64,000 nucleotides of DNA from Bradyrhizobium diazoefficiens (GTDB lineage Bacteria > Pseudomonadota > Alphaproteobacteria > Rhizobiales > Xanthobacteraceae): NCBI RefSeq assembly GCF_016616885.1, contig NZ_CP067102.1, positions 8,021,096 through 8,085,095 of the forward strand, given 5' to 3'. A program made the translations under genes and the position numbers. The notes below the pieces were generated by a model that was not told the origin of the DNA, searched no databases, and saw only the letters and a program-made list of their open reading frames with translations. Positions 42,539-59,998 of the stretch are shown here, in pieces; the stretch's first letter is position 1, and every line of letters starts with the position of its first letter.

Positions 42539-42565
42539 GATATCCTCCTTGATATCCCCTTGCGG

Positions 42566-43033
42566 TCAGGCGACGAAGGTGTCGAGCTTGTCGAAGGACG
42601 AGGTCCAGCCACGCTGGTGGTTGTCGCGCGCGGTCTCGTCGAAGAACTGGGCATGATGGAAGATCATCAGCGTGCCGGCACTGTCCGGCTTCAGCGTGAT
42701 CGTCACCAGCGATTCGCGCTCCGGCGTCGAATGCCAGGCCCAGGTGAAGACCAACCGCTCGTTCGGCACGACCTCGCGATAGAGGCCGCCCGCCTCGAAA
42801 TATTCGCCGTCCTCACCGGTGAACGAGATGCGGTAGCGGCCACCGGAGCGAACATCGAGCTCGGCATTCAGCGTCGCCGGCTTCATGTTCGGCGGCCCGA
42901 ACCACTGCACTAGCTGCTCGGCTTGCGTCCAGGCGGCGAAGACCTTTTCCGGCCGCGCACGGAGCCGGCGCGTGAGTGTGAGGCTTGGACCTTCGCTTGC
43001 GCGTTCGGCAGTGTTGGCGGCTGCGTTGACCAT
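42566..43033 (-). CDS. SRPBCC (AHSA1-like) domain protein
   Basis: The 155-residue protein has the START-like opening LTLTRRLRARPEKVFAAWTQ, WFGPPNMKPATL, GGRYRISFTGEDGEYF and a C-terminal GWTSSFDKLDTFVA. This fold binds hydrophobic ligands. Its first 124 bp overlap the end of the ArsR gene in another frame; no later start would keep the domain, so the overlap is real or the ArsR gene has run past its usual end. It is co-transcribed with both neighbours. Confidence 0.88.
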   Translation of the reverse strand: MVNAAANTAERASEGPSLTLTRRLRARPEKVFAAWTQAEQLVQWFGPPNMKPATLNAELDVRSGGRYRISFTGEDGEYFEAGGLYREVVPNERLVFTWAWHSTPERESLVTITLKPDSAGTLMIFHHAQFFDETARDNHQRGWTSSFDKLDTFVA

Positions 43034-43362
43034 GGTTTGTCCTCCACAAAGGCTGCAAGGCGGTCAAAACTCTCGGACCAGAATTGCGCGTAGCGATTGA
43101 GCCAGTTCATCGCCTGCTCCATCGGCTGCGCGGTGAGCCGGCAGGACACCGTGCGTCCGGTCTTCTCGCGCACGATCAGGCCGGCATCCGTGAGCACGTC
43201 GAGATGCTTCATGATCGCCGGCAGCGAGATCGAGAACGGCGCCGCCAGCTCGCTCACCGACAGGCTGTGCTTTTCGCCGAGACGCGCGAGCAGCGCGCGC
43301 CGTGTCGGATCGGACAGCGCCGCAAAGGTACGATCGAGCGTCCCGTCTTGATACTTAACCAT
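42910..43362 (-). CDS. ArsR-family regulator
   Basis: ATG 43362 (MVKYQDGTLDRTFAALSDPT) gives 150 residues. The winged helix is clear: TRRALLARLGEKHSLSVSEL, AAPFSISLPAIMKHLDVLTD and the wing VREKTGRTVSCRLT. It probably represses its own operon and responds to a small ligand; the metal-site cysteines of classical ArsR are absent. The last 40 residues, after WSTQ, overlap the SRPBCC gene and look like frame read-through (Ser/Arg/Pro-rich). Confidence 0.87.
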   Translation of the reverse strand: MVKYQDGTLDRTFAALSDPTRRALLARLGEKHSLSVSELAAPFSISLPAIMKHLDVLTDAGLIVREKTGRTVSCRLTAQPMEQAMNWLNRYAQFWSESFDRLAAFVEDKPWSTQPPTLPNAQAKVQASHSRAGSVRGRKRSSPPGRKPSS

Positions 43363-43413
43363 GCGGTTTAGTATAGACGCAAACGCCATCCCGTCAAGCC
43401 GGAACCACGCACG

Positions 43414-43440
43414 AAAAAAGCCCCGCCTTCCGGCGGGGCT
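43414..43440 (-). terminator. rho-independent terminator of the TctC-like gene
   Basis: AGCCCCGCC-TTCC-GGCGGGGCT forms a 9-bp stem, and the minus strand then continues with six T residues (A-run at 43414-43419). It lies 26 bp after the stop at 43466. Confidence 0.9.
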
Positions 43441-43465
43441 CCGTGTTTGGTCATTCACGAGATTG

Positions 43466-44440
43466 CTATTCGACCTTGAGGCCGGCGAACTCGACGACCT
43501 TCTTCCACTTCGCGGTCTCGGCCTCGATCTCCTGGCCGAACGCCTCCGGCGTCAGCACCAGGGGATCGCCGCCGAGCTCGACCAGGCGCTTGGTCATGTC
43601 GGGATCCTTCATGAGCGTGTTGATCTCGTTGTTGAGCTTCGCGATCATATCCTTGGGCATGTTCTTCGGCGCGCCGATGCCGAACAGCGCGCTCGCCTCG
43701 TAGTCCTTCACGGTCTCGCCGATCGCCGGCACGTCCGGCAGTTGCGGCGAGCGCTGTGCCGTGGTGACGCCAAGTGCGCGAAGCGAGCCGGAGCGGATGT
43801 GCTGGATGATCGAGGGCATGTTGTCGAAGATCACCTGCACCTGGCCGCCGAGCAGGTCCGTGATCGCCGGTGCGGCACCGCGATAGGGCACGTGCTGCAT
43901 CTTGCAGCCGGTCATCGCCATGAACATCTCGCCGGACAGATGCACCGAGGTGCCGTTGCCGGAGGAAGCCATGTTCACCTTGCCGGGGTTGGCCTTCACA
44001 TGCTCGATGAACTCGGCGACGGTGTTGGCCGGCACGTCCTTGTTGACGGTCATCACATTCGGCACGCGCTGGAACCCAGCGATCGGCGCGATGTCGCGGA
44101 CGAAGTTGAACTTGAGGTTGGCATAGAGCGTGGCGTTGATGTAGTTCGCCGGATTGACCAGCAGCACGGTGTAGCCGTCGGGCTCGGCGTTCACGACGGA
44201 TTCGGTGCCGATATTGTTGCCGGCGCCCGGCTTGTTCTCGATCACGAATTGCTGGCCGAGCCGCTCCGACAGCCGCTGGCCGATCAGGCGCGCCAGGATG
44301 TCGGTGGCGCCGCCCGGCGGATAGCCGACCACGAACTTCACCGGCCGGGACGGATAGTCGGCGGCGAAGGCTTTCGACAGCGGGCTGGCTGCAAGCGGGG
44401 TGGCGGCGAGCAGGCCGAGCGCGGAACGGCGAGTGATCAT
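43466..44440 (-). CDS. tripartite tricarboxylate transporter binding protein (TctC/Bug family)
   Basis: ATG 44440 gives 324 residues with a signal peptide (MITRRSALGLLAATPLAASP, cleavage near AFAA). The Bug-family blocks are YPSRPVKFVVGYPPGGATDI, GQQFVIENKPGAGNNIG, MQHVPYRGAAPAITDLLGGQ and NEINTLMKDPDMTKRLVELG. It binds a carboxylate in the periplasm. No TctA/TctB membrane genes are nearby, as is common for orphan Bug proteins. It is divergent from the VOC gene. Confidence 0.9.
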   Translation of the reverse strand: MITRRSALGLLAATPLAASPLSKAFAADYPSRPVKFVVGYPPGGATDILARLIGQRLSERLGQQFVIENKPGAGNNIGTESVVNAEPDGYTVLLVNPANYINATLYANLKFNFVRDIAPIAGFQRVPNVMTVNKDVPANTVAEFIEHVKANPGKVNMASSGNGTSVHLSGEMFMAMTGCKMQHVPYRGAAPAITDLLGGQVQVIFDNMPSIIQHIRSGSLRALGVTTAQRSPQLPDVPAIGETVKDYEASALFGIGAPKNMPKDMIAKLNNEINTLMKDPDMTKRLVELGGDPLVLTPEAFGQEIEAETAKWKKVVEFAGLKVE

Positions 44441-44548
44441 CTCAAGGGTTCTCCCAGTGTTGTTCTTGATAGCAGCGTCAGCGGCGTTGTAACAAAGCCC
44501 GTCACGCGCGGAAAGTGCGCAACGTTCGTGGCGACGAAAGGATAAGGC

Positions 44549-44959
44549 ATGCCGGTTAGGGTTGAGGCCCTCGATCACTTCGTGATTAACGTCGCCGACG
44601 TCGCGATAACTGCCGAGTGGTATCGCAAGATCCTCGGCATGGAAGTCAAGGTGTTCGACCCCGGCGGCGGCAAAGCGCCGCGGACGTCGCTTCAGTTTGG
44701 TAACCAGAAGATCAACGTCCGGCGGCGCGACGCCGACAAGGTGGAGTGGTTCACCGCCGACCATCCAACCGCCGGCAGCGAGGATCTGTGCTTCCTCACC
44801 TCCGCCACGCCCGACGAGGTGGTGGCGCATTTGCAGGCACATGGCGTCGCGATCGAGGAAGGCCCGGGTCCCAGGAAGGGCGCCCACGGCACGTTGCGCT
44901 CAGTCTATTGCCGGGATCCAGACGGCAGCCTGATCGAGATTTCGTCGTACGAGGAATAG
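44549..44959 (+). CDS. VOC-family (glyoxalase/dioxygenase fold) protein
   Basis: The 136-residue protein has a single VOC domain: VEALDHFVINVADVAITAEW, YRKILGMEVKVFD, and a C-terminal YCRDPDGSLIEISSYE. Metal-ligand positions are suggested by H10 (LDHFV) and the terminal glutamate in IEIS. The reaction is unknown. It is divergent from the TctC-like gene, with about 108 bp between them. Confidence 0.87.
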   Translation: MPVRVEALDHFVINVADVAITAEWYRKILGMEVKVFDPGGGKAPRTSLQFGNQKINVRRRDADKVEWFTADHPTAGSEDLCFLTSATPDEVVAHLQAHGVAIEEGPGPRKGAHGTLRSVYCRDPDGSLIEISSYEE

Positions 44960-45021
44960 AAGGCGCACGCCGTCCCCTCCCCGATTTGCGCCCCGCGCCA
45001 TCCGATGGGTGCGGCGCCGGA

Positions 45022-46116
45022 TCAGAACGACCCCAGCGCCACCGGCCTGAATGCCTGCAACAGCTGCTGATCGAGCTTGCCGCCCATGCCTTCCATCATC
45101 GTGAACGCACGCGAGTGGGTGAACGGCATGCGATAGGCGCGCTTCTCCACCAGGGCGGCGTAGATGTCGACGATGGTCGTCAGCCGCACGATGTCGCTGA
45201 TCTGGTTCGACGACAGCCCGTTCGGATAGCCCGAGCCATCGAGGAATTCGTGGTGATGCAGCACGACGTCGAGCATCTCCGGCGGGAAGCCGCCTTGCGC
45301 TGCGAGCGCGTCATAGCCGCGGCGCGGATGCTGGCGGACCTCGGCCATCTCCTCGTCCGTGAGCTTGCCGGGCTTGTCGAGCAGCACGGAGGGAACGAAG
45401 GCCTTGCCGACATCGTGCAGCAGGGCGGCACGGGTCAGCCGGCGCTGATCATCCTCGCGCATGCCGAGATGCTGCGCGAAGGACACCGCAAAACCGGTGA
45501 CGAACAGGCAGTGGCGATAGCTGCCGGCATGGTGGCAGCCCACCGTGGTGAGCCATTCGCGCAGCGAGGAATGCTTGATCGCTTTCAGGATCTTGCTCTC
45601 GGCGGCGATGACGTCGTCGAACGTCAGGGGCACGCCGAGCGGCAGCTTCTCGAACATCTTCTTCAGCACCGCATGCGCCGCCTCGACGCCGCGGTTGAGC
45701 GTCTTGCCGCGATCGGTCGCGTCATAGGTCGCAGTATCGGGGAATGCGGCGCGGATGCGCTGCAGAATCGCGTCGGGCTGCAGCGGTCGCGAGATGGTGT
45801 CGGTGGCCCCCAACGCCCAGGCCTGCATGGTGCCGTGATGCAGGGCATCGGCCAGCACGAACAGCCGCGGCATCGCGCGATAGGCGTCGCCGCGCAGCTT
45901 GTTGCGCACCCGCTGCACGCTTTCGGGCGCGCGCAGATTGATGTCGACCACGAGGCCGGAGAGATCGCGCGACGGCTGCTCAGGGATTTCCTGCGTCGTC
46001 ACCGTCGAGACATCGCCGATTGCCTTCAAAATGCTGGCGAGTTCGGTGCTCGCATCGCTCCGGTCGGAGGCGAGAAGAAGCCGGCGTTTGGCGGCGGATT
46101 TGGCTGGCGCGTTCAT
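45022..46116 (-). CDS. HD-GYP domain protein with receiver-like N-terminus
   Basis: The 364-residue protein starts with a degenerate receiver-like region (about 10-125: RRLLLASDRSDASTELASIL, LSGLVVDINLRAPESV) that seems to lack the full phosphorylation pocket. The C-terminal HD-GYP domain has LLHDVGKAFVPSVLLDKPGK (H234, D235), then VVLHHHEFLDGSGYPNGL, the HD-GYP signature. Such domains break down c-di-GMP. It faces away from the Fic gene. Confidence 0.88.
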   Translation of the reverse strand: MNAPAKSAAKRRLLLASDRSDASTELASILKAIGDVSTVTTQEIPEQPSRDLSGLVVDINLRAPESVQRVRNKLRGDAYRAMPRLFVLADALHHGTMQAWALGATDTISRPLQPDAILQRIRAAFPDTATYDATDRGKTLNRGVEAAHAVLKKMFEKLPLGVPLTFDDVIAAESKILKAIKHSSLREWLTTVGCHHAGSYRHCLFVTGFAVSFAQHLGMREDDQRRLTRAALLHDVGKAFVPSVLLDKPGKLTDEEMAEVRQHPRRGYDALAAQGGFPPEMLDVVLHHHEFLDGSGYPNGLSSNQISDIVRLTTIVDIYAALVEKRAYRMPFTHSRAFTMMEGMGGKLDQQLLQAFRPVALGSF

Positions 46117-46379
46117 GGCTTCCCCAACAGCACGGGACTGTATTGGGCGTCAGCCTAAGCCGGATCAGGTTCTCCCGCCCTTAAGAGGCGTGCTCAAGGG
46201 AACCCTGCGAAATCGGGTCCAATTTGAGGGATTTTTGCCGGACCGACGGTTCCCGACGAAGATGTCGAAAACAACCCCATGCACAGTAGCCGGGCCTCCC
46301 ATTCCCGTCAGAGAACGACGAGAATAATCTGGACGTGATGAGGATAGGCCCTATATTCTCCTCATATCGTGCAGAGAAA

Positions 46380-47480
46380 ATGACCTATATCCACGACAGA
46401 CCCGACTGGCCCAGGTTTCAGTGGCGCGCGGACAAGCTCGCGGCACGACTGGCCGAGGTGCGACACAAGCAGGGCCGCCTGCTCGGACGGATGGAAAATC
46501 TCGGCTTCAAACTGAAGGCCGAGGCCTCGCTCCAGGCGCTCACCGAGGATGTTGTCAAATCCAGCGAGATCGAAGATGAGATCCTCGATCGCAATCAGGT
46601 CCGGTCATCGATCGCACATCGGCTCGGCATCGATATCGGCGCGCTCGCACCCGTCGATAGACATGTCGAGGGCACCGTCGACATGACGCTCGACGCCACC
46701 CAGAATTACGATCAACCCGTCACCGCCGAGCGCTTGTTCGGCTGGCATGCCGCGCTCTTCCCGACAGGCCGGAACGGCATATTGAAGATCGTTGTCGGCG
46801 GATGGCGCACCGAACAATCGGGGGCCATCCAGGTTGTCTCCGGCCCAGCCGGCCGCGAGCACATTCATTTCGAAGCGCCGGCTGCCAAGCGGCTCGACCA
46901 TGAGATGAGCGCATTCCTTGACTGGTTCAATACCGATCGGGACTCAGACCCTGTCATCAAAGCCGCGATTGCGCATGTCTGGTTCGTGAGCATCCATCCG
47001 TTCGAGGACGGCAACGGCCGCATTGCGCGCGCGATCGCTGATCTGGCGCTGGCGCGTTCAGTGCAAAGCAAGCAGCGTTTCTACAGCATGTCAGACCAAA
47101 TCCGGAAAGAGCGAAACGCCTATTACGGCATCCTCGAAAAAACCCAGCGTGGCACGCTCGATATCACCGACTGGCTGCAATGGTTCCTCGACTGTCTCGA
47201 TCGCGCATTCGACGGCGCCGAGATGATCATCGGCAACGTGCTGGACAAGGCGAGGTTCTGGGAGCGCCACGGCGCGAGCTCTCTCAACGATCGGCAGCGA
47301 CGCATGTTGAACCGCCTGCTCCATGGCTTCGAAGGAAAGCTTACGTCGTCCAAATGGGCAAAGATCGTCAAGGTTTCGCAAGCGACGGCTGCGCGCGACA
47401 TCGAGGACCTGATCGAGAAGGGCATCCTGCAAAAGGACGCCGCCGGCGGCCGGAGCACGAGCTATTCGCTGGTGCCTTAG
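46380..47480 (+). CDS. Fic-family AMP-transferase (DUF4172-Fic-HTH)
   Basis: ATG 46380 gives 366 residues. The N-terminal DUF4172 region (about 1-95) has the inhibitory segment SSEIEDEIL (S61, E65), where the usual glycine after E65 is D66. The Fic core has HPFEDGNGRIARAI with catalytic H206. A C-terminal winged helix (about 320-365, KWAKIVKVSQATAARDIEDL) follows. It transfers AMP or a related group to a target protein, with self-inhibition by the N-terminal glutamate. No antitoxin-like partner lies beside it. A likely promoter is in the A/T-rich stretch just before the ATG. Confidence 0.9.
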   Translation: MTYIHDRPDWPRFQWRADKLAARLAEVRHKQGRLLGRMENLGFKLKAEASLQALTEDVVKSSEIEDEILDRNQVRSSIAHRLGIDIGALAPVDRHVEGTVDMTLDATQNYDQPVTAERLFGWHAALFPTGRNGILKIVVGGWRTEQSGAIQVVSGPAGREHIHFEAPAAKRLDHEMSAFLDWFNTDRDSDPVIKAAIAHVWFVSIHPFEDGNGRIARAIADLALARSVQSKQRFYSMSDQIRKERNAYYGILEKTQRGTLDITDWLQWFLDCLDRAFDGAEMIIGNVLDKARFWERHGASSLNDRQRRMLNRLLHGFEGKLTSSKWAKIVKVSQATAARDIEDLIEKGILQKDAAGGRSTSYSLVP

Positions 47481-47582
47481 AGCAATTGTTGAGTCGCGAG
47501 GCGCCTGACGCTGCTTGAACTGGGAAGCTGCGGCGTACCTGGATGCCTTCGCGGGGCATGACAGTGAGATTGTGGAGGCAGC

Positions 47583-47619
47583 TCAAAAACAAATCCGCCG
47601 GAGGCTGCCCTCCGGCGGA
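47583..47619 (-). terminator. terminator copy A downstream of the autotransporter
   Basis: TCCGCCGGAGG and CCTCCGGCGGA form an 11-bp stem with a 4-nt loop; the minus strand continues TTTGTTTTTG. It is part of repeat copy A and now lies 93 bp after the autotransporter stop. The same hairpin recurs at 54353-54378. Confidence 0.85.
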
Positions 47620-47692
47620 TCATCTCACCTCATAATCGCAACCGCCCTACGCCTTCATCGCTCCCTTCACGGCTTCGGCCGTAATCGGCAGC
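47594..47692 (-). repeat. 99-bp direct repeat, copy A (aldehyde-oxidase 3' end)
   Basis: It matches 54353-54451 at 95 of 99 positions, in the same orientation. Read on the minus strand it still encodes [14 protein letters not shown] and a stop, exactly the last residues of the aldehyde-oxidase gene. The coding differences (ATC/ATT, GGG/GGA, TAA/TAG) are all silent; the fourth lies after the stop. Copy A has no gene body attached. Confidence 0.93.
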
Positions 47693-47711
47693 CGGCGTCC
47701 GAAAGCCGACA

Positions 47712-50700
47712 TCACCACGCATACCGCACCACGCCCTTGCCGGCGTAGGAGCGCGTGACGCTCGAGAATTCCCCCTCGAAGGTGGCGGCGGCGGACCAGC
47801 CGTTCAGCCATTTCTTCTCGACCGCCCCCGTTACCAGCGCCGAGTCGGCCGCCATGGCCGCGCCGTTCACGACGAAGCTCGCACCAGGCAGCGTCTGGAA
47901 TGTCGCGGCGATCGTGCGATCCGGATTGAAGTCGTGCGCCCAGGCGGCTCGGCCCCGCAACGTCAAGAGGCCGTCTTGCACAACGAAGGATCTATCGGTC
48001 CGCAGGCCGAGTTCGCTGCGGGTGTCGGTGACGGTCTTCGCATCGTACGCCAGAGCGAAGATGCTGCTGCCAACGATCGCCTGCTCGGCATAGTTGGGCA
48101 GATCGAACGTGGTGAACTGGCCTGCGGCATACGGAGTAAACCCAACACCGTGGGCGACGAAGCGATATCCGCCCTCGAGCCGCCCGGACCAGGCGTTGGC
48201 CTTGAACTCGGCGTGCAACTGATCGATGCCGGCAGCGGTAACGGTGCGATCGGTCGTGATATCCTGCCAGCCGTAAGCCAGCGCGGCGGTGACGTACGCC
48301 GGTCCAATCGTGTGGCGAGCGTACATTCCGACCTGGAACAGATCAGAGCGTCCGCTGCCGCCGTTGGCGACGCTGAAATTGGTGCCGCCGCCGGCCATGG
48401 CAAAGCCTGCCAGCGTGGACGGTGCGAGCAGATAATCGGCGCCGACGGCCACACCGTAAGCACGACCGGTCGCGCTGTTCGATCCGAGCGCGGAATCGCC
48501 ACTCGTGGTTCGCCCCCCGCCGAAGCCGGCGCCCCAGGTGCTCCAACGGCGTTCGAAGCTGGCCGCCGGAGGCGCCTTGTTGGACATCATCGCATAGGCA
48601 GCGGACTCGCGGCCCACGTCGGCGTATTGCGAGGCGGTCGACGAGATCGCCGCTTCGCCGCGCCTGTCGGAAGGATCCGTCATCACGCCCAAAAACATCC
48701 CCATTGCGTCATATGTGCTCTGTTGCGAGCCGGTCGCCAGCTCGCCCGAGACTTGCGTCAGATCGGCCGGCGTCAGCGACCCGAATGCGGCCTGAATGCC
48801 CCCATTCGTATTGAAGTAATTCGTCAGCGCGTTGGCGACGTTCTGCTGATTGACGTTGAGGCCGCTATATTGCGTGAACCCCAGCCCGAGATTGAGATAG
48901 ACATCGTTGGCGTCGTAACTCAGGCTCGACATGAAGCCCGATGGGAGATTGGTGTTGACGATCGACGCGAAGGTGCCGCTGACGCCGCCGGCAGCGTTCA
49001 CAATCGTGTACTGCTTGGCCACGTAGCTACCCGGCCCGAATGAAGCGCTCACCGTGGCGCCGCCGAGCGTCGCAGTCCCCATGACATTGGTGAGATCGGC
49101 CGCCGTCGGCGAGACCTCGACAGAGTAGTGTCCGGCCGAGGTGAACGCGAGATTGCCCTGCACGGCCAGCGTGCCTATCGAGTTTCCGGGCGCCAGCGTA
49201 CCGCCATTGACCGTGGTGCTGCCGACTGTTCCGGTGCCCCCGAGCGTGCCGCCGGACACGGTCACGGTCGATCCCGCGAGCGAGCCGTTCACGGCCAGCC
49301 GTCCACCCGTCACGTTGGTCACCCCGGTGAAGGCGCTGAAGTTGTTGCCGAGAATCGTGGTGCCGGCGATTTGATTGATCGTGCCGGCGCCGCTGACGGT
49401 CGGAGCGAAAGCATAACCGGCGCTGGTGTGATTGAAATTGATCGACCCGGAGCCCGCCCCGAACACGATGCTTGGGGTGGTTACCGTTCCCGGCGCGGCA
49501 GCGGCACTCGCCGCATCCGCTCCGATGTTGAGTGTGCCAACGGACCCCGCTTGCGTGGCGATGAATAAACCCGACAACGCTGTCACATTACCGCCGTTTG
49601 AGATCGACAACGATCCGGTTCCGGCGTCGCCGACATAAATGCCGCCTCCGTTGGTCAGGCTTGATCCAGATCCATCCACGGACAACGTACCGATTGCACC
49701 GACGCTTGCTCCAATCTGGGCGATGCCGCTGCCCCCAAATACGGTTGCGCCGCCGGAGATCGCCAACGATCCCGTACCCGCGCCACCGACGACAAGGTTG
49801 AGACTGTTGCTCCAGCTCGAACCGACACCATCAACTGTCACGTGGCCGACGCTGCCGGCAAACGCGCCAATAATCCCGTTAATGTCGTTGACGTTGCCCG
49901 CATTGGAAATCGCCAACGCACCGCTTCCCGCGTCGCCGATCCCGAGAAAGCCATTGGTCCAGGCGGAGCCTGTGCCGTTGACGGCCGCGCTCCCACTTGC
50001 GCCCGCGAACTGACCGAGATCACCGTTCGTGTCGTTGACAGTAGCGCCGTTCGAAACGAGAAGTGAACCCGTGCCGTATTGGCCTATGATCATGTTGCCG
50101 GTGCCTGTGGACCAACTCGAACCAGCTCCGGTCAATGTGACGCTGCCGCTGGAGTTGGCAAGGGCACCAACGGTGCCACCGACGCTGCTGACTGCGCCGC
50201 CATTCGAAATGGTCAGCGAGCCGCTGCCCGCGTAGCCGACATTGATGCCGGCGCCGGTCGTCCAGCTCGAATTCGCGCCGGTCACTGTCGTCACGCCGGT
50301 CCCGCCCGCCGCGACGCCTAGATATCCGTCGCCCGAAATGACGACGGCGCCGTTCGAAATTGTTACCGAGCCGTTGCCACCAACGCCGACGAAGAGGAAC
50401 CCAGGAGAGGTCCACGAAGACCCCGCGCCGTCCACAGTCATGGTGCCGCTCGTGCCTGCAGCCTGGCCCAAAATGCCGCTGCCATTGCTGCTGCTGAGCG
50501 CGCCGCCGTTGGAAACCAGAAGTGAGCCGTTGCCGTGTGCGCCAATGATCAAATCGAAAACGCCGAAGGACCAGCTTGAACCGGCCCCCGTCACCGTGAC
50601 CGCGCCGCTAGCGCCAGCAAGGTTACCGATCGCACCGCCGCTGCTGACGAGCGATGAGTTGTTCGATAGTGTAAGAGTGCCGGTGCCCGAAAAGCCAACG

Positions 50701-51578
50701 TTGGCAAGCCCCGTCGTCGACATTCCCGAGTGGCCATCGAGGATGACGGTGCCGGTGCCGCCCGCGACACCGATGAGGAACGTGGCGGTCGTTACCTGGC
50801 CCTGGTTCGAAAGCGTCAGCGTGCCAGTACCCTGGGTGCCAACGACTAGGCTCGAAGTATTGCTCCAAGTTGAGCCCAGGCCATCTACTGTCACCGTGCC
50901 GACGCCCCCGGTATTCTGGCCGATGATCCCGTTTGCGTCGCTGACCACGCCGCCGTTCGAGATCTGAAGCGCGCCGGTTCCGTAATTTCCCACGATCACC
51001 TGATTGCCGACGCCCGCAGTGGTCAAGGTCGACCCCGCGCCCGTCACCGCGAGCGTACCATTCGAGCCGGCAAGATCGCCGACCGAAGCACCAATGCTGC
51101 TGACCGCGCCGCCGTTCGAAACCGTCAGCACGCCGGTGCCGGCGTTGCCGATGCTAAGACCCAGACTGTTGACCCAATCGGATCCTGCGCCATCGACCGT
51201 CACCGTGCCGTTGGAGAACGACTGGTTGCCGATGATTCCGGACGTCCCGTTGAGCGCGCCGCCGTTGGAAATCAGGAGAGACGCGGCGCTGAGATCAGCG
51301 ACCGTCAGAAAGCCGCTGGTCGCGGAGAACGTGTTGATGACGGTGGCATTTGGCGTGACCGTATCAATGACGACGGTCGACGCCCCCGTTGGAATTGCGT
51401 TCGGGCTCCAGTTGCCGGCCGTGAACCAGCTGGTGGAACTCGTTCCATTCCATGTTTGGGCTTGCGCCGACGAAGACAGCGGCATTCCGGCAAGGGCGGT
51501 GCCGGTCAGCAGCAATGCGGCATAGCCACGCGCTCGGACGGATTTCGGGGCGCGGTGGCTTGCGTGCGACTTCGTCAT
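47712..51578 (-). CDS. autotransporter (type Va) with repeat passenger domain
   Basis: The 1288-residue protein starts with an extended signal peptide (to about 41, ending SSSAQAQ). The passenger (about 42-950) is built of about 11 degenerate repeats of roughly 54 residues, each with a VTVDGAGSSW-like edge and a GTGSLTISNGGAVS-like edge, rich in Gly, Ser, Thr and Asn, as in beta-helical adhesins. After a linker (TTVNGGTLAPGNSIGTLAVQ) come a junction and a C-terminal 12-strand barrel (about 1020-1288) ending VRYAW with a terminal aromatic residue. The passenger is probably surface-exposed and may bind host or abiotic surfaces. It lies between the flanking repeats with two AraC-type regulators. 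Confidence 0.9.
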   Translation of the reverse strand: MTKSHASHRAPKSVRARGYAALLLTGTALAGMPLSSSAQAQTWNGTSSTSWFTAGNWSPNAIPTGASTVVIDTVTPNATVINTFSATSGFLTVADLSAASLLISNGGALNGTSGIIGNQSFSNGTVTVDGAGSDWVNSLGLSIGNAGTGVLTVSNGGAVSSIGASVGDLAGSNGTLAVTGAGSTLTTAGVGNQVIVGNYGTGALQISNGGVVSDANGIIGQNTGGVGTVTVDGLGSTWSNTSSLVVGTQGTGTLTLSNQGQVTTATFLIGVAGGTGTVILDGHSGMSTTGLANVGFSGTGTLTLSNNSSLVSSGGAIGNLAGASGAVTVTGAGSSWSFGVFDLIIGAHGNGSLLVSNGGALSSSNGSGILGQAAGTSGTMTVDGAGSSWTSPGFLFVGVGGNGSVTISNGAVVISGDGYLGVAAGGTGVTTVTGANSSWTTGAGINVGYAGSGSLTISNGGAVSSVGGTVGALANSSGSVTLTGAGSSWSTGTGNMIIGQYGTGSLLVSNGATVNDTNGDLGQFAGASGSAAVNGTGSAWTNGFLGIGDAGSGALAISNAGNVNDINGIIGAFAGSVGHVTVDGVGSSWSNSLNLVVGGAGTGSLAISGGATVFGGSGIAQIGASVGAIGTLSVDGSGSSLTNGGGIYVGDAGTGSLSISNGGNVTALSGLFIATQAGSVGTLNIGADAASAAAAPGTVTTPSIVFGAGSGSINFNHTSAGYAFAPTVSGAGTINQIAGTTILGNNFSAFTGVTNVTGGRLAVNGSLAGSTVTVSGGTLGGTGTVGSTTVNGGTLAPGNSIGTLAVQGNLAFTSAGHYSVEVSPTAADLTNVMGTATLGGATVSASFGPGSYVAKQYTIVNAAGGVSGTFASIVNTNLPSGFMSSLSYDANDVYLNLGLGFTQYSGLNVNQQNVANALTNYFNTNGGIQAAFGSLTPADLTQVSGELATGSQQSTYDAMGMFLGVMTDPSDRRGEAAISSTASQYADVGRESAAYAMMSNKAPPAASFERRWSTWGAGFGGGRTTSGDSALGSNSATGRAYGVAVGADYLLAPSTLAGFAMAGGGTNFSVANGGSGRSDLFQVGMYARHTIGPAYVTAALAYGWQDITTDRTVTAAGIDQLHAEFKANAWSGRLEGGYRFVAHGVGFTPYAAGQFTTFDLPNYAEQAIVGSSIFALAYDAKTVTDTRSELGLRTDRSFVVQDGLLTLRGRAAWAHDFNPDRTIAATFQTLPGASFVVNGAAMAADSALVTGAVEKKWLNGWSAAATFEGEFSSVTRSYAGKGVVRYAW

Positions 51579-52008
51579 GACGAATAACTTTCAAATTGAT
51601 CCCGGTGCGGAGCAGTCGGGAGGACTTCGCTCACGCGGGGCGATTGACAGGTTTGGCTGCGGGGGCCGCGGACCGCCGGGGTTGCGGCCGGACAGCTATC
51701 GATCGGTTCAGGGAGAAACTCCGGCCTCCGACCCCGCCTTCGTCATTGCGGCATCACGCCCCGGAAGCCCGAGATGCCGGGCTTCCGTGTCCAGATCGCG
51801 TTGAGGTGTGACGTTCATCGGGATCCCAAATCCTCCGTCGAGAGCAGCAGATGGGAAATACTACCGGGTCGACTTTGCTCGGCGCTTGGGCTGGATGCCG
51901 CGATGATTTGGGCTAGACGGCAGAAGCGGCAGTCGAAATGCCGCCGTTGCAGATCGGCAACTGTCGTATCGCGCGCCGCGTCCGCCTCGCGCGTCACAGC
52001 AAACGCGC
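51579..52008. other. intergenic region between autotransporter and AraC-type gene
   Basis: No gene is supported in this 430-bp gap. It contains the inverted repeat GGAAGCCCG / CGGGCTTCC (51763-51786) and the leader of the autotransporter on the minus strand. It is the likely place for the autotransporter promoter and an AraC-type operator. Confidence 0.5.
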
Positions 52009-52995
52009 TCACTGCGCTGATTTGCGGCTTGATGCGACGGAGGCGCGAATATCGGATGGCGTCGCGCCAAAGCGCCGTCGGAACGCGTGATTGAAATATG
52101 ACAGATCCCCAAAGCCCGATTCAAAGGCGATGGTGCTTATCATGTGGCCGGCAAAGCGCGGATCCACGAGGCAGCGATGGGCGCGCTCCAGGCGACCACT
52201 CAACACGAAGTCCGTGAATGTCTGTTCCTCGCCTTCAAATAGCGTTCGAATGTAGCGCGGCGAAATCCCGTGCCGTGCGGCAAGGGTTTCGATCGACAGA
52301 TCCCGCCGCGTCAGATTGGCAAGAATATCGGACTTGAGAGCGAGAAGCCTCGCGACCCTGATGCCGCGCCCCTTGGCCAGTTCGGCGGTGTCCCGCCTTG
52401 CGCCAAGCGCCATCGCCACGAGATCCTGCACATGCGAACCAGCGGCTGCCTTCAATTCCAGGGACATCTGGCTGAATTCGTTTTGGAGTATTTTGACGTA
52501 GCCGACCAAAAGCCGCATCGCGTCGTTGCCGCGCGGAATAAGCTGCATCAGGGCGTCGTCAATATTGGCGACGGCCTGCGTCAGAGCGGTTCGTGGCACG
52601 GCGATGGTAAGAAAGTCGATCGGCGTGTCGTACGACGCGCCTCCGGGCGAATCGTTCGACCACAGAACGCCTTCGTGCGCCTGGAACGCGACATCTCTCT
52701 TTCCCTGATGCGTTGCGCACTTTCCGCTGAGCAAAATGCCGAGGACGAGGTCGTCGCTGCCGTCGGCGGCGAGCGCCCGTGTCCTGGTAATCCGGTTGGG
52801 AGAACTGGAGACCGACGCAATGGTCAGGTTCGGCAGCGCATAGATGTCCGCTTCGCTGCGAAACGGCTCGCTCCCGACGGACTCCATATCCATCTTGACG
52901 ACGTTGCGGCCGAAGACTTCTCGCCAGATCGAAAGTCTATCCTTCTCAGGCAACTCATCGGTCGAAAACCGGAAAAATCCGTCATTCTCTTGCAC
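52009..52995 (-). CDS. AraC-family regulator, paralogue 1
   Basis: The 328-residue protein has an N-terminal AraC-binding-like domain (about 10-200, DELPEKDRLSIWREVFGRNV) and a C-terminal double helix-turn-helix (about 225-320): LSIETLAARHGISPRYIRTL and ISTIAFESGFGDLSYFNHAF. The adjoining gene encodes a close paralogue, and the two share most of the C-terminal sequence. It is upstream of and in line with the autotransporter gene, so control of that gene is the simplest guess. The ligand is unknown. Confidence 0.88.
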   Translation of the reverse strand: MQENDGFFRFSTDELPEKDRLSIWREVFGRNVVKMDMESVGSEPFRSEADIYALPNLTIASVSSSPNRITRTRALAADGSDDLVLGILLSGKCATHQGKRDVAFQAHEGVLWSNDSPGGASYDTPIDFLTIAVPRTALTQAVANIDDALMQLIPRGNDAMRLLVGYVKILQNEFSQMSLELKAAAGSHVQDLVAMALGARRDTAELAKGRGIRVARLLALKSDILANLTRRDLSIETLAARHGISPRYIRTLFEGEEQTFTDFVLSGRLERAHRCLVDPRFAGHMISTIAFESGFGDLSYFNHAFRRRFGATPSDIRASVASSRKSAQ

Positions 52996-53121
52996 AGCAA
53001 CGCTCCGACCGCCTGGTCGGCGACATCGGGCACAGTATCGAGAACAGGCGGGCTATCGCTTGGGCTGAACGGCACGGCTTCTTGGGCTGTGAGGAACAGG
53101 GACGAACCGGACTGCTGCGGC

Positions 53122-54084
53122 CTATCCGTCTAAATCGCGGCAGGCCGCAGCCCTGATATCGGACGGGGTAGCGCCATATCGCTGGCGAAAGCGGTGATTG
53201 AAGTAGGAAAGATCGCCAAAACCGGCCTCGAATGCGATGGTGCTGATCTGGCGATCACGGTGTGTCGGACTGATGAGAAGCGCATGAGCGCGGGCCAACC
53301 GTTGGCCCAGCACGAAATCCGTAAACGTCGTCTCCTCGCTCTGGAACAGCGAGCGGACATAGCGCGGAGAAACGCCATGGCGCGCGGCGAGCGCGTCAAT
53401 GGAGAGCCAGCGCGACGTAATATTGGCGGCCGCATCCGCCTTGATGGCATGAAGGCGCGCCATTCGTACCCCCCGCCCTTTCGCGATCTCGGCAGCGTCC
53501 CGGGTCGCCCCGAGAGCCAGAGCGACCAGGTCATGGACGTGGTCCGCGGTTGCTCGCTGCAGAGTTGGAGGAGATCGCGTCAGCTCGCCGGTCACGAGGT
53601 GCAGATAGGATGTCAGCAGGCGCAATGCCGGGTTGTTCACCGAGAGCGGCCGAATGGTGAAAGGGTCGGCATTCGCAAGCTGCGACGAAAGCCTTTTTCG
53701 TTCGAAACGAAGGTTGATGAGCTGCGTGCGCGAATGTCCGGCAAAGCTCCCCACCTCGTCATTCCTCGTCAGGATCGCTTGGCCATTGCCTATGGTCTCT
53801 TCTCTGCCAAGTTGCCTCGCCGTACCGACGCCTTTCTCCAGAATGACGAGGACGAGATCATCGTTGTCGATCAATTCACTGGTGAGGCGATTTTGCATAG
53901 GGGAGAGCGATCCCGAGGCGATGCCAAGACCCGGTAAGGCCTGCAACGTCATGTCGACATGAAAATCCATGCCGGGCTCGGGCTCTATCTCGATTTTCAG
54001 GAGTCGGCGCCCGAATGTCTCGCGAAAAATCTCTAGGCGCTCGGCCGGCAGCAAGGTTTCCGTATCAATTCGCAGACTATCCAT
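53122..54084 (-). CDS. AraC-family regulator, paralogue 2
   Basis: ATG 54084 (MDSLRIDTETLLPAERLEIF) gives 320 residues; longer upstream starts add non-family residues. The layout matches its neighbour: AraC-binding-like domain, then LSIDALAARHGVSPRYVRSL and ISTIAFEAGFGDLSYFNHRF. Conservation is strong in the DNA-binding half and weaker in the sensing half, so the two may read similar sites with different signals. It is the cargo gene nearest to repeat copy B. Confidence 0.88.
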   Translation of the reverse strand: MDSLRIDTETLLPAERLEIFRETFGRRLLKIEIEPEPGMDFHVDMTLQALPGLGIASGSLSPMQNRLTSELIDNDDLVLVILEKGVGTARQLGREETIGNGQAILTRNDEVGSFAGHSRTQLINLRFERKRLSSQLANADPFTIRPLSVNNPALRLLTSYLHLVTGELTRSPPTLQRATADHVHDLVALALGATRDAAEIAKGRGVRMARLHAIKADAAANITSRWLSIDALAARHGVSPRYVRSLFQSEETTFTDFVLGQRLARAHALLISPTHRDRQISTIAFEAGFGDLSYFNHRFRQRYGATPSDIRAAACRDLDG

Positions 54085-54343
54085 TGCGCAATTCCAAGGA
54101 CCACTCCACTCGCTCAGATCGTTAAAATGCAAGTAGCACGCCAACCGTTACCAAATCTCCGGGCGGCGCAACTCCGCGTAGGCCGAGCTAATGAAGTTGT
54201 CGAGTGGTTGCACGGGCTCGCAATCATCGACACCGACATTCGCTCTTGGATGAGCATATCGCAGTCATCGCGAAGCGCGGCGCGGGAAGCTCATGACATG
54301 GAGCGGAGCACTGGTCGACAGCCAGATTGTTGAGCGGTGAACT

Positions 54344-54378
54344 GCAAAAGAGTCCGCCGGAGGCTGCCCTCCGGCGGA
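54344..54378 (-). terminator. terminator copy B of the aldehyde-oxidase operon
   Basis: The same 11-bp stem and 4-nt loop as copy A, followed on the minus strand by CTCTTTTGC. It lies 27 bp past the aldehyde-oxidase stop. Confidence 0.85.
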
Positions 54379-54451
54379 TCATCTCACCTCATAATCGCAA
54401 CCGTCTTACGCCTTCATCGCCCCCTTCACGGCTTCGGCCGTGATCGGCAGC
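54353..54451 (-). repeat. 99-bp direct repeat, copy B (resident aldehyde-oxidase 3' end)
   Basis: This copy is part of the intact molybdopterin-subunit gene and its terminator. Copy A lies 6.76 kb away in the same orientation; the interval between them is the autotransporter/AraC cargo. Confidence 0.93.
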
Positions 54452-56691
54452 GCCCGGACGCGGGCGCCGCTGGCGTTGAAGATGGCGTTGCCGATGGCGG
54501 GCGCCACCACCGTCACCGCGGGCTCGCCGACACCGGTGGCCTTCTCGCCATTGGCGATCACGGCGACCGCGACCTCCGGCACCTGACTCATGCGCAAGGG
54601 CGTATAGCCATCGAAGTTGGTCTGTTCGATGCCACCGTCCTTGAGCGTCGCCTTCTCGTACAGCGCCAGCGACAGGCCCCACAGCGCCGCGCCCTCAACC
54701 TGGGCACGGATGTTGTCGGGATGCACCTGCGTGCCGACATCGGTTGCGACCGTGAGCTTCTTGACGGTCACTTCGCCAGACGGCGCCACCGCGACATGCG
54801 CGACGCAAGCGGTCCAGCTTGCGGTCGCGCGCTCCTGCGACGACACGCAGGCCACGCCCATGCCTTCTCCCTTGGGGAGTTCCTTGGTGCCGTAGCCGGC
54901 AAGCCCCATCGCCGCGAGCAGCGTGTTGCGCAGCCGCTGCGCGCCGCCATCGTTCTTGCCGGCGCCGTCGAGCAGCGAGATGCGGTATTGCGCCGGATCC
55001 TTGCCGGTCGCAGCCGCGATCTCATCGATCATGCTTTCGACCGCCCAGAAGGTCCAACCCGGCGCCACCGAGCGGAGCTGACCCGACGGGGTGGCGTTGT
55101 GCGCCATCTCGTTCTTGATCGCCCGCACGTGATGGTTGGGCACCGTGTAGAAGAAGTCCGACCCGTTCACCGTGAAGGCATCAAGCGGACCCTTCTTGTC
55201 GACCGAGGGCGTGAGGAAATCAGGGATTCCCCAGCGCTGCGTCGGCCAGGCCGAGACCACGTCGTGGCTGAGCGCGACGAGCTTGCCATCGCCGTCCACG
55301 CCGGCCTTCACTTTCTGGTAGGTGAGCGGACGCGAGAAATCCATCGTCATGTCGTTCTCGCGCGTGTAGATCACCTTCACCGGCTTACCCACGGCCTTGG
55401 CCGCCTGCACCGCCGGCACCATCATGTCGGCGTCGAGCCTGCGGCCGAAGCCGCCGCCGAGCCACATCTGGTGCATCACCACGAATTTTGGATCGATCCC
55501 GGCAGCACCGGCCGCGATCGCGCCGGAGCGCGTCGCGAACTGGTTGCCGGAATAGATGTGCAGGATGTCGCCCTTGAACTCCGCGGTGGCGTTCATCGGC
55601 TCCATCGGCGCGTGGATGTTGATGCTGGTGGTGTATTCCGCCTCCAGCACCTTGGCCGCCGTGCCAAGGGCTGCTGCAGGATCGCCGTCCTTGACGAAGA
55701 ACTGGCCGGAATCGTCGAGCCCTTGAAGCCGCTTGGCCTCGGCGTACAGCGACTCGCTCGACACCTTCGCATTCGGACCGCCGTCATAGCTGACCTTCAG
55801 CGCCGCGGCAGCCTTCTTGGCGTTGGCGTAGGTGTTGGCGACCGCAACCACCCAGCCCGTCGTCGTCTGGGTCTTGTCGTCGAGGGTGACGGCCTTGATG
55901 AAGCCCGGCACCTTCTTCGCGTTGCTGTCGTCGACCGACTTCACCGTAGCGCCATAGCGCACCGGCGGCGTCACCACCGCGCCATAGGCCATGCCCGGAA
56001 TCATCACGTCGATGCCGTATTTGGCCGTGCCGTTGGTCTTGGAGGGGATGTCGAGCTGCGGCACCGACACACCGATCATGATGTATTGATCCGGCGTCTT
56101 CAGCTTGATCGCCTTCAGCTCGTCCGGCGTGAAGGCTTTTGTCGCCTTGCCGCTCTTCACGATATCAGCGAACGACATCTGCTTCTTCGACTTCGGATGC
56201 GAGATCATGGAGTCGCGCACCACGAGCTCCGAAGCCGGCACGCCCATGGACGCAGCCGCACCTTCCGTCAACGCCATGCGTCCGGCGGCGCCCGCCCGGC
56301 TCATCGCGTCAAAGTTCATCATGGTCGACCAGCTGCCGCCGGTGATCTGCGCCCCCAGCACGGGGTCGTTGAATTTCGGATCGTTGGAGGCGAGGTTGAC
56401 CCGCATGTCGCTCCACTTCGCGCCCAGCTCCTCGCAGACGATCTGCGCCATGGTGGAGGCGATGTGCTGGCCCATGTCGGCCTTGCCGCAGGTCACAGTG
56501 ACCAGGCCATCCGGCGAGATCGCGTACCAGACGCTCGGCTCGAAATTGGCGGGAGCCGCAGCGAGCGCTTCGCCGATACCGGGCACGCCGGCATAGCCAA
56601 GCACGAGACCGGTGGCGGCGGTCCCGACCAGGAAGGAGCGGCGGCTGAGATCTGATGTCTCGGATGTGACGTTTTTCACGTGTTGATTCAT
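54406..56691 (-). CDS. aldehyde oxidase/xanthine dehydrogenase-family molybdopterin subunit (IorB-like)
   Basis: ATG 56691 overlaps the upstream stop by 4 bp and gives 761 residues. A twin-arginine signal ([20 protein letters not shown]) shows export as a folded enzyme. The molybdopterin-binding repeats include [40 protein letters not shown] and a C-terminal [20 protein letters not shown] with the likely catalytic glutamate in GVGEPA. Such two-subunit enzymes (isoquinoline 1-oxidoreductase type) hydroxylate N-heterocycles or aldehydes in the periplasm. The iron-sulfur subunit is encoded just upstream. The cytochrome subunit often found with this type is not next to it. Confidence 0.92.
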
Positions 56692-57179
56692 GTGGGCCTC
56701 CGCTCGTTGCCGGCGGCGGATGCGGTGCGCATCTCGGTGGCGGCGCGCATGATTGCCTTCTGGATCCGCGAATAGGTCATGCAACGACAGAGATTGCCGT
56801 CCATATGGGCCACGACCTCTTCCTTGGTCGGATTGGAATTCTTCGCCAGCAGCGAAGCTGCCTGCATGATCTGCCCGGACTGGCAGTAGCCGCATTGCGG
56901 CACCTGCTCGGCAATCCACGCCTTCTGCAAGGGATGATCACCCTTGGCGGAGAGACCTTCGATGGTGGTGATCTTCTTGCCGGCGACATCGCCGACCATG
57001 GTCTGGCACGACCGCACGGCTTCGCCGTTGACGTGCACGGTGCAGGCACCGCACAGGCCGGCACCGCAGCCGAATTTCGTGCCGGTCATCTGCAATTGTT
57101 CGCGGATGGCCCAAAGGAGCGGCGTGTCGTTTGCCGCATCCACGGACATGCTCCGCCCGTTGATGGTGAGCGTTGGCAT
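56688..57179 (-). CDS. (2Fe-2S) subunit of the aldehyde oxidase (IorA-like)
   Basis: ATG 57179 ([20 protein letters not shown]) gives 163 residues. The plant-type ferredoxin cluster is [16 protein letters not shown] plus C of VRSCQTM, and the second cluster is [13 protein letters not shown] and [13 protein letters not shown]. It passes electrons from the molybdenum subunit. Its stop overlaps the start of the large subunit, so the two are translated together. It has no export signal and would travel with the Tat-bearing partner. Confidence 0.93.
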
Positions 57180-57458
57180 AGGCGTCTTCCCCTGCCGGTG
57201 CATGAAGCCGCTTACGGCGGCAACTTGTGTAGCGGACGCCCACCGGGTCGGCGGCCGCCTTGCGCGAAGAATGATCGCGTTCGCGCGCAGAGGCAAATGC
57301 AATTTGGAATCGGTCGAAACAAACGCGGTGGCGGTATGTTGTGCGTTGCGTCAAGTGCGCTGATGCTAGCGACTAGACACAACAAGCACACGCTGAGCAC
57401 GCATGCTATCGCGTCTGGGCAGTTTCTTGCAGGTAACCAAGGGAGCTAGTGTGCAACT

Positions 57459-57540
57459 GCGGACGCGGACGCGGACGTTCCCTTCTCCCCTTGTGGGAGA
57501 AGTTGGCGCGAAGCGCCGGATGAGGGGTATCTCTCCGCTC
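57459..57540. repeat. GCGGAC triplet run and palindromic repeat at a truncated gene
   Basis: Three GCGGAC units (57459-57476) precede a repeat with CCTTCTCCCC-TTG-TGGGAGAAG and GGCGCGAAGCGCC. It fills the promoter side of the alpha/beta hydrolase gene, whose N-terminal coding part is missing. The 57180-57458 stretch carries only the divergent leader of the aldehyde-oxidase genes. Confidence 0.6.
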
Positions 57541-57550
57541 GACGTCGGCG

Positions 57551-58216
57551 ATGTGGCATGGGCAGATCGATGCACTCGCGAAGGACCACAAGCTTGTGCT
57601 GTGGGACATGCGCGGCCACGGACAGTCCGATTATCCCGACGATCCCAAAGCCTATAGCGAGCCGCTCACGGTCGGCGACATCGCGGCGATCCTCGATGCG
57701 ATCGGCGTCAAGCGCGCCATCATCGGCGGGCTGTCGCTCGGCGGCTACATGTCGCTGGCGTTCTATCGCGCCCATCCAGCGCGCACGCGGGCGCTGCTGA
57801 TCATCGACACCGGCCCCGGCTTCAAGAAAGATGATGCACGCGAGGCCTGGAATGCGCGCGCACTCGCCACCGCCGACAAGCTCGATCGTGAAGGCCTCGA
57901 CGTGTTGAAGGCGGCGACGCGCGAGCGCGCCACCGCCAGCCATCGCAACGCCAACGGCCTGGCACTGGCCGCGCGCGGCATGCTGACCCAGCGCGACGCC
58001 AAGGTGATGGAGCTGCTGCCACACATCAAGGTGCCGTCGCTGATCGTGGTCGGCGCCGACGACACGCCGTTCCTGGCGGCGTCCGACTACATGGCGGCCA
58101 AGATCCCCGGCGCACAAAAGGTCGTGATCCCCGCGGCCGGGCACGCCGTCAACATCGATCAGCCCAAGGCTTTTGTTGACGCCGTGGCGCCTTTCCTGAA
58201 GAACTTGCCGGAATAG
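57551..58216 (+). CDS. alpha/beta hydrolase lacking its N-terminal part
   Basis: The frame of 221 residues starts at MWHGQIDALAKDHKLVLWDM, which in relatives follows some 35-40 residues including the first strand and the HG oxyanion motif. The rest is normal: DMRGHGQSDYPD, the nucleophile elbow GGLSLGGYMSLAF (S98), LIVVGADDTPFLAAS (acid) and PAAGHAVNIDQPK (His). The preceding bases are a palindromic repeat, so the missing piece was probably lost with its insertion. Whether a shortened protein is made is uncertain; it may be a pseudogene. Confidence 0.7.
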   Translation: MWHGQIDALAKDHKLVLWDMRGHGQSDYPDDPKAYSEPLTVGDIAAILDAIGVKRAIIGGLSLGGYMSLAFYRAHPARTRALLIIDTGPGFKKDDAREAWNARALATADKLDREGLDVLKAATRERATASHRNANGLALAARGMLTQRDAKVMELLPHIKVPSLIVVGADDTPFLAASDYMAAKIPGAQKVVIPAAGHAVNIDQPKAFVDAVAPFLKNLPE

Positions 58217-58224
58217 GCGGCGAG

Positions 58225-58581
58225 ATGAGGATCACGGCAATGAAGCGGGCAATGTTGGCTGCGGGCGCAGCGCTTCTCTCAATGGCAGCGTCCGTGCAGG
58301 CCGAGCCGTTCGGAACGGTGCCGCTGCGCCATCCCTTCGTCGAGACCTTGTCGAACAACACGCCCTTGGCGTTCGGGATGGATGCGGAGCAGACCGCGCA
58401 CGCCCTCGGACAGCGCTTGCAATACGTCAAGGGACGCCCCGGCAACGAGATCTATCTCGCGCTACGCGACATCGGCGGCAGTGGATTGGTGCCGTACCGC
58501 CACCGCCTGTTCCTGCAATTCCGTCATGGACGGCTGGCAGGATGGAAGGAGGATTACGGCGAGAACTGGATGTGGGAGTGA
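58225..58581 (+). CDS. small secreted hypothetical protein
   Basis: The 118-residue protein has a signal peptide (MRITAMKRAMLAAGAALLSM, cleavage near VQAE). The mature part, about 90 residues, reads PFGTVPLRHPFVETLSNNTP and ends FRHGRLAGWKEDYGENWMWE. No family is recognised. It follows the alpha/beta hydrolase by 8 bp and probably shares its transcript. Confidence 0.72.
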   Translation: MRITAMKRAMLAAGAALLSMAASVQAEPFGTVPLRHPFVETLSNNTPLAFGMDAEQTAHALGQRLQYVKGRPGNEIYLALRDIGGSGLVPYRHRLFLQFRHGRLAGWKEDYGENWMWE

Positions 58582-58626
58582 GGTGAGAGCGACCTCCCAG
58601 ATCGATAAGCAAGAAGGACAACCCGC

Positions 58627-59298
58627 GTGGGACAAGACATCAAACTGACGGCGTCGGACAATTTCCAGCTCGGCGCCTATCGCGCCGACCCCTCGGGCGC
58701 GCCGAAGGGCGCGGTGGTGGTGATCCAGGAGATTTTTGGCGTCAATCATCACATCCGTTCGGTCTGCGACCGCCTCGCGGACGAAGGTTATGTCGCGATC
58801 GCGCCGTCGATCTTCGACCGCACTTCGCCGGGCTTCCAGTCGGGCTATACGCCCGACGAGATCGCCGAGGCGCGCAAGTTCGTCGCCAATCCCGATTGGG
58901 ACGCGATGCTGCGCGACACCCAGGCTGCGATCGATGCGGTGAAGGGTGTCGGCCCGGTCGGCATCATCGGCTTCTGCCTCGGCGGCAGCGTCGCCTTTGT
59001 CGCGGCGACGCGGCTTTCAGGCCTGAAGGCCGCGATCGGCTATTACGGCGGCGCGGTCGTGCGCTTTGCAGATGAGAAACCGAAGGTGCCGACGCAGCTG
59101 CATTTCGGCGAGAAGGACGCCGGCATTCCGCTGACCGACGTCGAGACCGTCAAGGCGAAGCGGCCTGATGTCGAGGTCTTCATCTATCCCGGCGCGCAGC
59201 ACGGCTTCCATTGCGACGAGCGGCCGAGCTACGACAAGGCCGGCTCCGAGACCGCCTGGCCGCGCAGCCTGGACTTTTTCGCGAAACATTTGAAGTAG
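58627..59298 (+). CDS. dienelactone hydrolase family protein
   Basis: GTG 58627 (MGQDIKLTASDNFQLGAYRA) gives 223 residues. The Cys-Asp-His triad of the family is visible: GIIGFCLGGSVAF (C118), FGEKDAGIPLTD (Asp) and YPGAQHGFHCDERP (His). The IQEIFGVNHHIRSVCDRLAD block is typical. The family opens dienelactones in aromatic catabolism, but many members act on other esters; no other ortho-cleavage gene is nearby. Confidence 0.9.
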   Translation: MGQDIKLTASDNFQLGAYRADPSGAPKGAVVVIQEIFGVNHHIRSVCDRLADEGYVAIAPSIFDRTSPGFQSGYTPDEIAEARKFVANPDWDAMLRDTQAAIDAVKGVGPVGIIGFCLGGSVAFVAATRLSGLKAAIGYYGGAVVRFADEKPKVPTQLHFGEKDAGIPLTDVETVKAKRPDVEVFIYPGAQHGFHCDERPSYDKAGSETAWPRSLDFFAKHLK

Positions 59299-59386
59299 CC
59301 TCCGTCAGAGCAGGAATCGGGTGGCTGCACCACGACGCGCGGCGATAGAGCTGGCTGATCAAGCCAGTTCACGCCGGGAGAGCGTC

Positions 59387-59869: not shown

Positions 59870-59876
59870 TCTCCGC

Positions 59877-59998
59877 CGTCATTCCGGGGCGCGCGTAGCG
59901 CGAGCCCGGAATCTCGAGATTCCCCGGTGCGCAATTGCGCACCTGAGGTCTGGTGCTAGCGCACCACCCCGGAATGACGAAGTACGTTGTACTTCGTC
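59877..59998. repeat. palindromic repeat and hairpin between convergent genes
   Basis: Arms CGTCATTCCGGGGC (59877-59890) and CCCCGGAATGACG (59967-59979) enclose inner GC-rich inverted repeats (GTGCGCAATTGCGCAC). A further hairpin GACGAAGTAC-GTT-GTACTTCGTC ends at 59998 and reaches into the stop codon of the minus-strand gene. The unit likely terminates both genes. Confidence 0.65.

Follow-up and report, generated by a model that had tools for sequence, protein, structure and literature searches.

The window analysed here is a stretch of 64,000 nucleotides from the genome of the soil bacterium Bradyrhizobium diazoefficiens (NCBI RefSeq assembly GCF_016616885.1, contig NZ_CP067102.1, positions 8,021,096 to 8,085,095), and the subject is a module of three genes within it, an autotransporter gene and two AraC-family regulator genes, that lies between two direct copies of the 3′-end of an aldehyde-oxidase gene. 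All three are open frames on the minus strand. The parts of the locus, in window coordinates, are as follows.

47594–47692, minus strand: copy A of the gene end (14 codons, stop codon, spacer and a terminator hairpin at 47592–47621), probably the displaced original end
47693–47711: junction of 19 bp from copy A to the stop codon of the autotransporter gene, with a putative illegitimate joint at 47692/47693
47712–51578, minus strand: autotransporter, a surface protein of 1288 amino acids, full open frame, with PF03797 (E 4.7e-46) and ten stretches of TIGR04393 (T5SS/PEP-CTERM repeat)
52009–52995, minus strand: AraC-family regulator 1, 328 amino acids, with family matches, 78–89% identical in three relatives
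53122–54144, minus strand: AraC-family regulator 2, 340 amino acids, with family matches, 75–90% identical in three relatives
54173–54352: stretch that separates the module from copy B and lacks a clear counterpart; its final ~36 bp look like a diverged downstream flank of the gene
54353–54451, minus strand: copy B of the gene end (14 codons, stop codon, spacer and hairpin), the end now in use
54406–56919, minus strand: molybdopterin-binding subunit of an enzyme of the aldehyde-oxidase/xanthine-dehydrogenase type, full open frame, with PF02738 and PF20256

The two copies are identical at 95 of 99 bases, leaving four differences, and their starts are 6759 bp apart. When the flanks were compared with each other by BLAST the repeat was recovered with an E value of 1e-43, and a genome-wide search (a single contig of 8.09 Mb) at E ≤ 0.001 returned exactly two places, namely copies A and B. 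Copy B is made up of the last 14 codons and the stop of the molybdopterin-subunit gene, followed by the spacer and the terminator hairpin; the same parts make up copy A, where no gene body is attached. Three of the differences are coding (47647, 47662 and 47683) and all three are silent, one of them being TAA against TAG, while the fourth, at 47645, is non-coding. In all these respects a preliminary description made from the letters of the window, which had reported two near-identical gene ends bracketing the autotransporter and AraC genes and separated in their coding part by silent changes only, was borne out.

The hairpin of copy A has 13 pairs and the tail TGTTTTTG, that of copy B 11 pairs and the tail CTCTTTTG. 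Because terminator-like sites are overall no commoner in the region than in shuffled sequence (7 versus 7.1), the assignment of these two as terminators rests on their stems, which are the longest among the seven sites of the region. The copy A hairpin follows the autotransporter gene and, to judge from its sequence and position, can serve as the predicted terminator of that gene, as it may do at present.

Cargo-free alleles of this locus exist, and their comparison supports the view that the module is an insertion. We inspected 111 loci, mostly picked from the best matches and therefore a non-random sample, to which one genome, G011, contributes two (L037 and L038, with equal scores on one contig, C16, which may reflect a large duplication or else an artefact of assembly). 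The gene end is present in 110 of them, and in 104 of these the same stretch also includes the syntenic neighbour, an HD-domain gene (45022–46116 in the window), the remaining six having no neighbour on the stretch that was fetched. None of the 104 syntenic loci has the autotransporter/AraC cargo at this place. Nor does the fetched DNA around any of the 110 gene ends contain a second match of more than 70 bp to the 99-bp repeat; a double copy of equal divergence in relatives was what the preliminary description had named as contrary evidence. The distance from the neighbour to the stop codon of the gene is at most 343 bp in 96 of the 104 loci and 881 bp in one (L043), and on these figures the notion of an insertion hotspot was rejected. 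Six of the 104 loci have a Fic gene at this place, corresponding to two further parts of the window that lie beyond copy A.

46335–47480, plus strand: Fic-family gene (DUF4172 and Fic domains by Pfam), a variable neighbour beyond copy A and outside the cargo insertion itself
47509–47593: resident downstream flank of the aldehyde-oxidase terminator, which adjoins the single terminator in cargo-free relatives and includes a dispersed Bradyrhizobium repeat

In five of these six loci Fic stands alone and directly beside a single gene end (distance 1268–1423 bp). This is the allele to be expected if, as the preliminary description proposed, the cargo was inserted at the gene end, and the gene-end repeat does mark both junctions. 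The sixth, in genome G136, has 7.7 kb between Fic and the terminator and no second copy; its insert (L123 5448–13193) encodes a pyridoxal-phosphate enzyme, a beta-eliminating lyase, a regulator with helix-turn-helix and cupin domains, and an ABC transporter of the amino-acid type. In a different locus, that of G277 (L181 7065–8990), the syntenic neighbour and the gene end are separated by ~2.0 kb of extra DNA, which includes an NAD-dependent epimerase-like gene.

Two gene ends could also have arisen without an incoming gene end, if the aldehyde-oxidase region was first duplicated in tandem and one gene body was then replaced or deleted by the cargo. Loss of a body with retention of a 3′ remnant does happen, since in G245 (L130 5040–5479) the body of the aldehyde-oxidase gene is deleted and ~66 codons plus the terminator remain (the module lies on another contig of that genome), and two genes of this type are present in some genomes (G011, G025 and G031). 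However, no gene body can be aligned in the 19 bp that separate copy A from the autotransporter gene, the fetched DNA shows a second copy at none of the 110 ends, and more steps are needed; we regard a tandem duplication as an unlikely origin of the repeat.

The outer flanks of the two copies indicate which of them is resident. They were tested against 104 gene ends, each with a hairpin and 35 bp or more of flanking sequence, a different set from the 104 syntenic loci. In 88 of the 104 cases the flanks of the relatives were matched better by the 60 bp beyond copy A than by the 60 bp beyond copy B, with the reverse in 12 and ties in four, and the mean score was 33.0 for copy A and 8.4 for copy B, compared with −3.8 (standard deviation 1.1) for 200 simple shuffles. 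Copy A is therefore placed on the resident side. The dispersed repeat in its flank, which also matches other places in the genome, sits right beside the terminator in cargo-free loci. As far as codon −14, copy A and the cargo-free allele are collinear, and the insertion point would therefore lie inside the gene rather than past its terminator. On the best reading, copy A is the original end of the gene in a displaced position, the cargo probably entered within the gene end, and copy B now closes the gene. On the outer side of copy B, 11 listed relatives align from 54317 on, and the resemblance of this flank to that of copy A is weak, being matched by 24 of 2000 shuffles in local alignment and by 9–15 of 2000 in anchored alignment; the outer side of copy B may be an eroded or a foreign version of the same flank.

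These flanks bear directly on the origin that the preliminary description had assigned to copy A, which would have arrived with the autotransporter as the 3′-end of a homologous gene from a relative. Such an origin would fit the three silent differences and the fact that the states of copy A occur singly in relatives (in 15, 3 and 6 of 110 ends), two of them together in three ends. The flank outside copy A is resident, however, and the spacer between stop codon and hairpin is private to copies A and B, being found in none of the 110 other ends, the closest of which has 4 mismatches in 26. Copy A is also closer to copy B, with 96% identity, than to anything among the matches listed for the other 264 genomes, the best full-length one of which reaches 90%. 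An origin of copy A from a sampled relative was rejected on the 90% match and on the observation that no end of the 110 has all three of its silent variants, and we consider a relative's gene to be a highly improbable source altogether.

The silent differences themselves carry less weight than had been placed on them as the sign of a foreign gene end. Copy B has the majority state at all three silent sites (95, 72 and 104 of 110), where copy A has the minority states; at the non-coding site the roles are reversed, the majority base in copy A being shared by 71 of the 110 ends and the rare one in copy B by 2. Three silent changes out of three have a probability of 0.017 to 0.045 in the absence of constraint, depending on the transition bias that is assumed, and the silent-only pattern is weak evidence. 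It is compatible with a released copy, but also with a pair of ends each of which formed the end of a working gene before the event.

The module is also present at other places in the genus. A DNA search of 265 genomes, our own included, with the AraC part gave some match in 182 and, among the matches listed, long matches in three other genomes, G269 (88%) and G245 and G078 (76%). In these three carriers (Bradyrhizobium sp. OK095, sp. SSUT77 and, for G078, B. cytisi) the autotransporter and both AraC genes occur together in the same order, in neighbourhoods that differ from that in the window; full-length relatives of the autotransporter, 59–73% identical, are found in three Bradyrhizobium. 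The homology to G269 spans 47705 to 54172, so that at the left junction the repeat stops at 47692 and the homology to the G269 module begins at 47705. The preliminary description had looked to strains carrying the autotransporter for a counterpart of copy A, and in none of the three is the module at the aldehyde-oxidase gene end: G269 and G078 have a Fic–gene-end locus of their own that is cargo-free, and G245 has a gene end without cargo, from which most of the gene body has been lost. The tested flanks of the module in the three relatives contain no direct repeat resembling the 99 bp (the G245 contig being just 8.1 kb long); the best one is 28 bp long and 86% identical (G269, E 0.003) and lies hundreds of bases outside the module. 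Insertion between repeats as a general habit of the module was rejected on this basis. A protein search identified an AraC relative in Methylocapsa sp. S129 (68%), with no autotransporter in the stretch fetched there, and more distant AraC relatives in B. neotropicale, where five of them stand in a row (L145) next to two stretches that are similar to the C-terminal half of the autotransporter.

The insert comprises 6.66 kb with three genes, and no gene for a tyrosine or serine recombinase is found in the cargo or within 200 kb of it, in agreement with the earlier statement that the insertion is integrase-free. In the same genome the nearest tyrosine recombinase (PF00589) lies 261 kb away on one side, or ~214 kb away round the ends of the record if the contig is a circle, and no serine recombinase (PF00239) occurs within 1 Mb, the nearest being more than 1.1 Mb distant; transposases were not searched for genome-wide.

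These distances matter for the main rival explanation, according to which the locus is the remnant of a decayed integrase-type element: the 3′-end of the gene would have been the attachment site, copy B the replacement end and copy A the displaced one, and the recombinase gene would have been lost later. The geometry is the same as that of prophage e14 in the icd gene of Escherichia coli, in which the element supplies a gene end and a pseudo-end of 163 bp is displaced (PMC6379469). Here, as with e14 and other elements that attach at 3′-ends, the insertion lies inside the gene end, a second copy closes the gene and the original end is displaced. A decayed element would account for both copies encoding the same peptide, and the direct gene-end repeats around the insert (99 bp, 96%) are of the kind by which an integrase-type island or prophage is recognised. 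In addition, a resolvase gene is located ~1.4 kb from the module in G078 (L096 10322–10873), and this resolvase-family gene could have moved the module there. Unlike these elements, however, the insert in the window has no recombinase or phage gene, consisting as it does of autotransporter and AraC genes; and the site has received neither this insert nor a similar repeat-making one in the 104 syntenic loci, with no sign of reuse in other genomes (cargo in 0 of 104, a second copy in 0 of 110). Besides the loci with Fic only, just G136 and G277 of the 104 have more than 1.5 kb there; the open reading frames scanned in these two inserts (the 881-bp insert of L043 was left out) are metabolic, transport, regulatory or family-less and include no recombinase family, and neither locus has a second copy. 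The trace of downstream flank outside copy B would be needless for an attachment core. Taken with the recombinase distances, this makes a decayed integrase element, in our estimate, a somewhat unlikely explanation.

We favour, as on balance probable, the insertion of the three-gene module, in this lineage, into the 3′-end of the gene, between codon −14 and the terminator, by one illegitimate and one homologous joint. The incoming DNA would have carried the module together with a near-identical gene end; the homologous exchange could have occurred anywhere within the 99-bp core, and the illegitimate joint would lie at 47692/47693. As a result, the original end would have been pushed outward as copy A, where it may now terminate the autotransporter transcript; copy B now closes the gene. 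The weak and diverged trace of flank outside copy B suits incoming DNA that came from a gene-end locus. Three routes to this outcome can be envisaged: the single-crossover (Campbell-type) integration of a circle carrying the module and the gene end, an end-assisted (homology-facilitated) illegitimate insertion, or recombination of an allele that has the module with one that lacks it, one end being illegitimate.

Homology-facilitated illegitimate recombination, with one homologous and one illegitimate joint, has been described for Streptococcus pneumoniae, Acinetobacter and Pseudomonas stutzeri (PMC5361080, PMC2884548, PMC3240628), and has been proposed for immunity arrays of the type VI secretion system in Vibrio (PMC5361080) and for variable segments in E. 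coli (PMC2884548). The present locus resembles such events in that a foreign module was added and part of a resident gene displaced. The homologous junction is represented by the 99-bp core on both sides, and on the putative non-homologous side the repeat stops at 47692, as seen in this locus. Homology-facilitated illegitimate recombination usually replaces resident DNA, whereas here the resident 99 bp were duplicated and not lost; the duplication therefore calls for a circle, a sister chromosome or a later exchange of alleles. After Campbell-type integration of a circle, the insert should be flanked by direct repeats of precisely the segment that circle and chromosome share, and a circle with the module and the gene end would yield exactly the structure observed. 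What sets the present insert apart is that none of its three genes was recognised as a replication or transfer gene. We file the locus with a known kind of event, in which an insertion at the end of a gene leaves that end duplicated, its mechanism being either that of e14-like elements or homology-facilitated recombination. No paper on this locus was found by a search of the literature on Bradyrhizobium, autotransporters, AraC and horizontal gene transfer, as judged by titles and the opening parts of abstracts.

It is important to point out that several observations weigh against an insertion by one illegitimate and one homologous joint. No donor with both the module and the gene end was found, and only the product of the event is seen. 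The stretch 54173–54316 is not accounted for, the 180 bp from 54173 to copy B having no full counterpart in the same genome or in the loci compared. The gene body beside copy B does not settle whose body it is, as nine 90-bp windows from 54443 fail to separate the groups, the best Fic-bearing relative being 96–99% and the best other relative 94–100% identical; in the terminal 90 bp of the gene the respective figures are 88% and 91%. Finally, the resolvase gene near the module in G078 belongs on this side of the balance, as does an open reading frame near the module in G245 that has a DDE_3 match below the family cut-off. Overall, the event looks like an ordinary recombination accident and not like a new mobile element.

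The surroundings of the locus show a few further features. No transfer RNA (tRNA) gene lies near the insertion, the sole one in the window being a tRNA-Arg at 29838–29914, which short stretches of L061 and L096 match, perhaps through the tRNA itself. An Rfam scan of 42000–60000 gave no family at the gathering score. At 45008–45012, most of 20 loci carry ~1.6–2.0 kb that are missing from the window and also from G078; in G077 this extra DNA includes an open reading frame of 323 amino acids with no Pfam family.

The locus is a clear and polarised case of gene gain without a recognisable mobile element, in which the cargo-free allele, the resident end and the other locations of the module are all seen in relatives. 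A more general idea, which we put forward as a long shot, is that the terminator hairpin, well conserved in the genus, together with the gene end constitutes portable homology, enabling integrase-free capture by homologous recombination in which the captured genes gain a terminator on arrival. The evidence so far is a single case. If this idea holds true, the locus would exemplify a general, enzyme-free mode of capture at conserved gene ends, and doubled gene ends would be footprints of integrase-free gene capture by which it could be surveyed across the genus.

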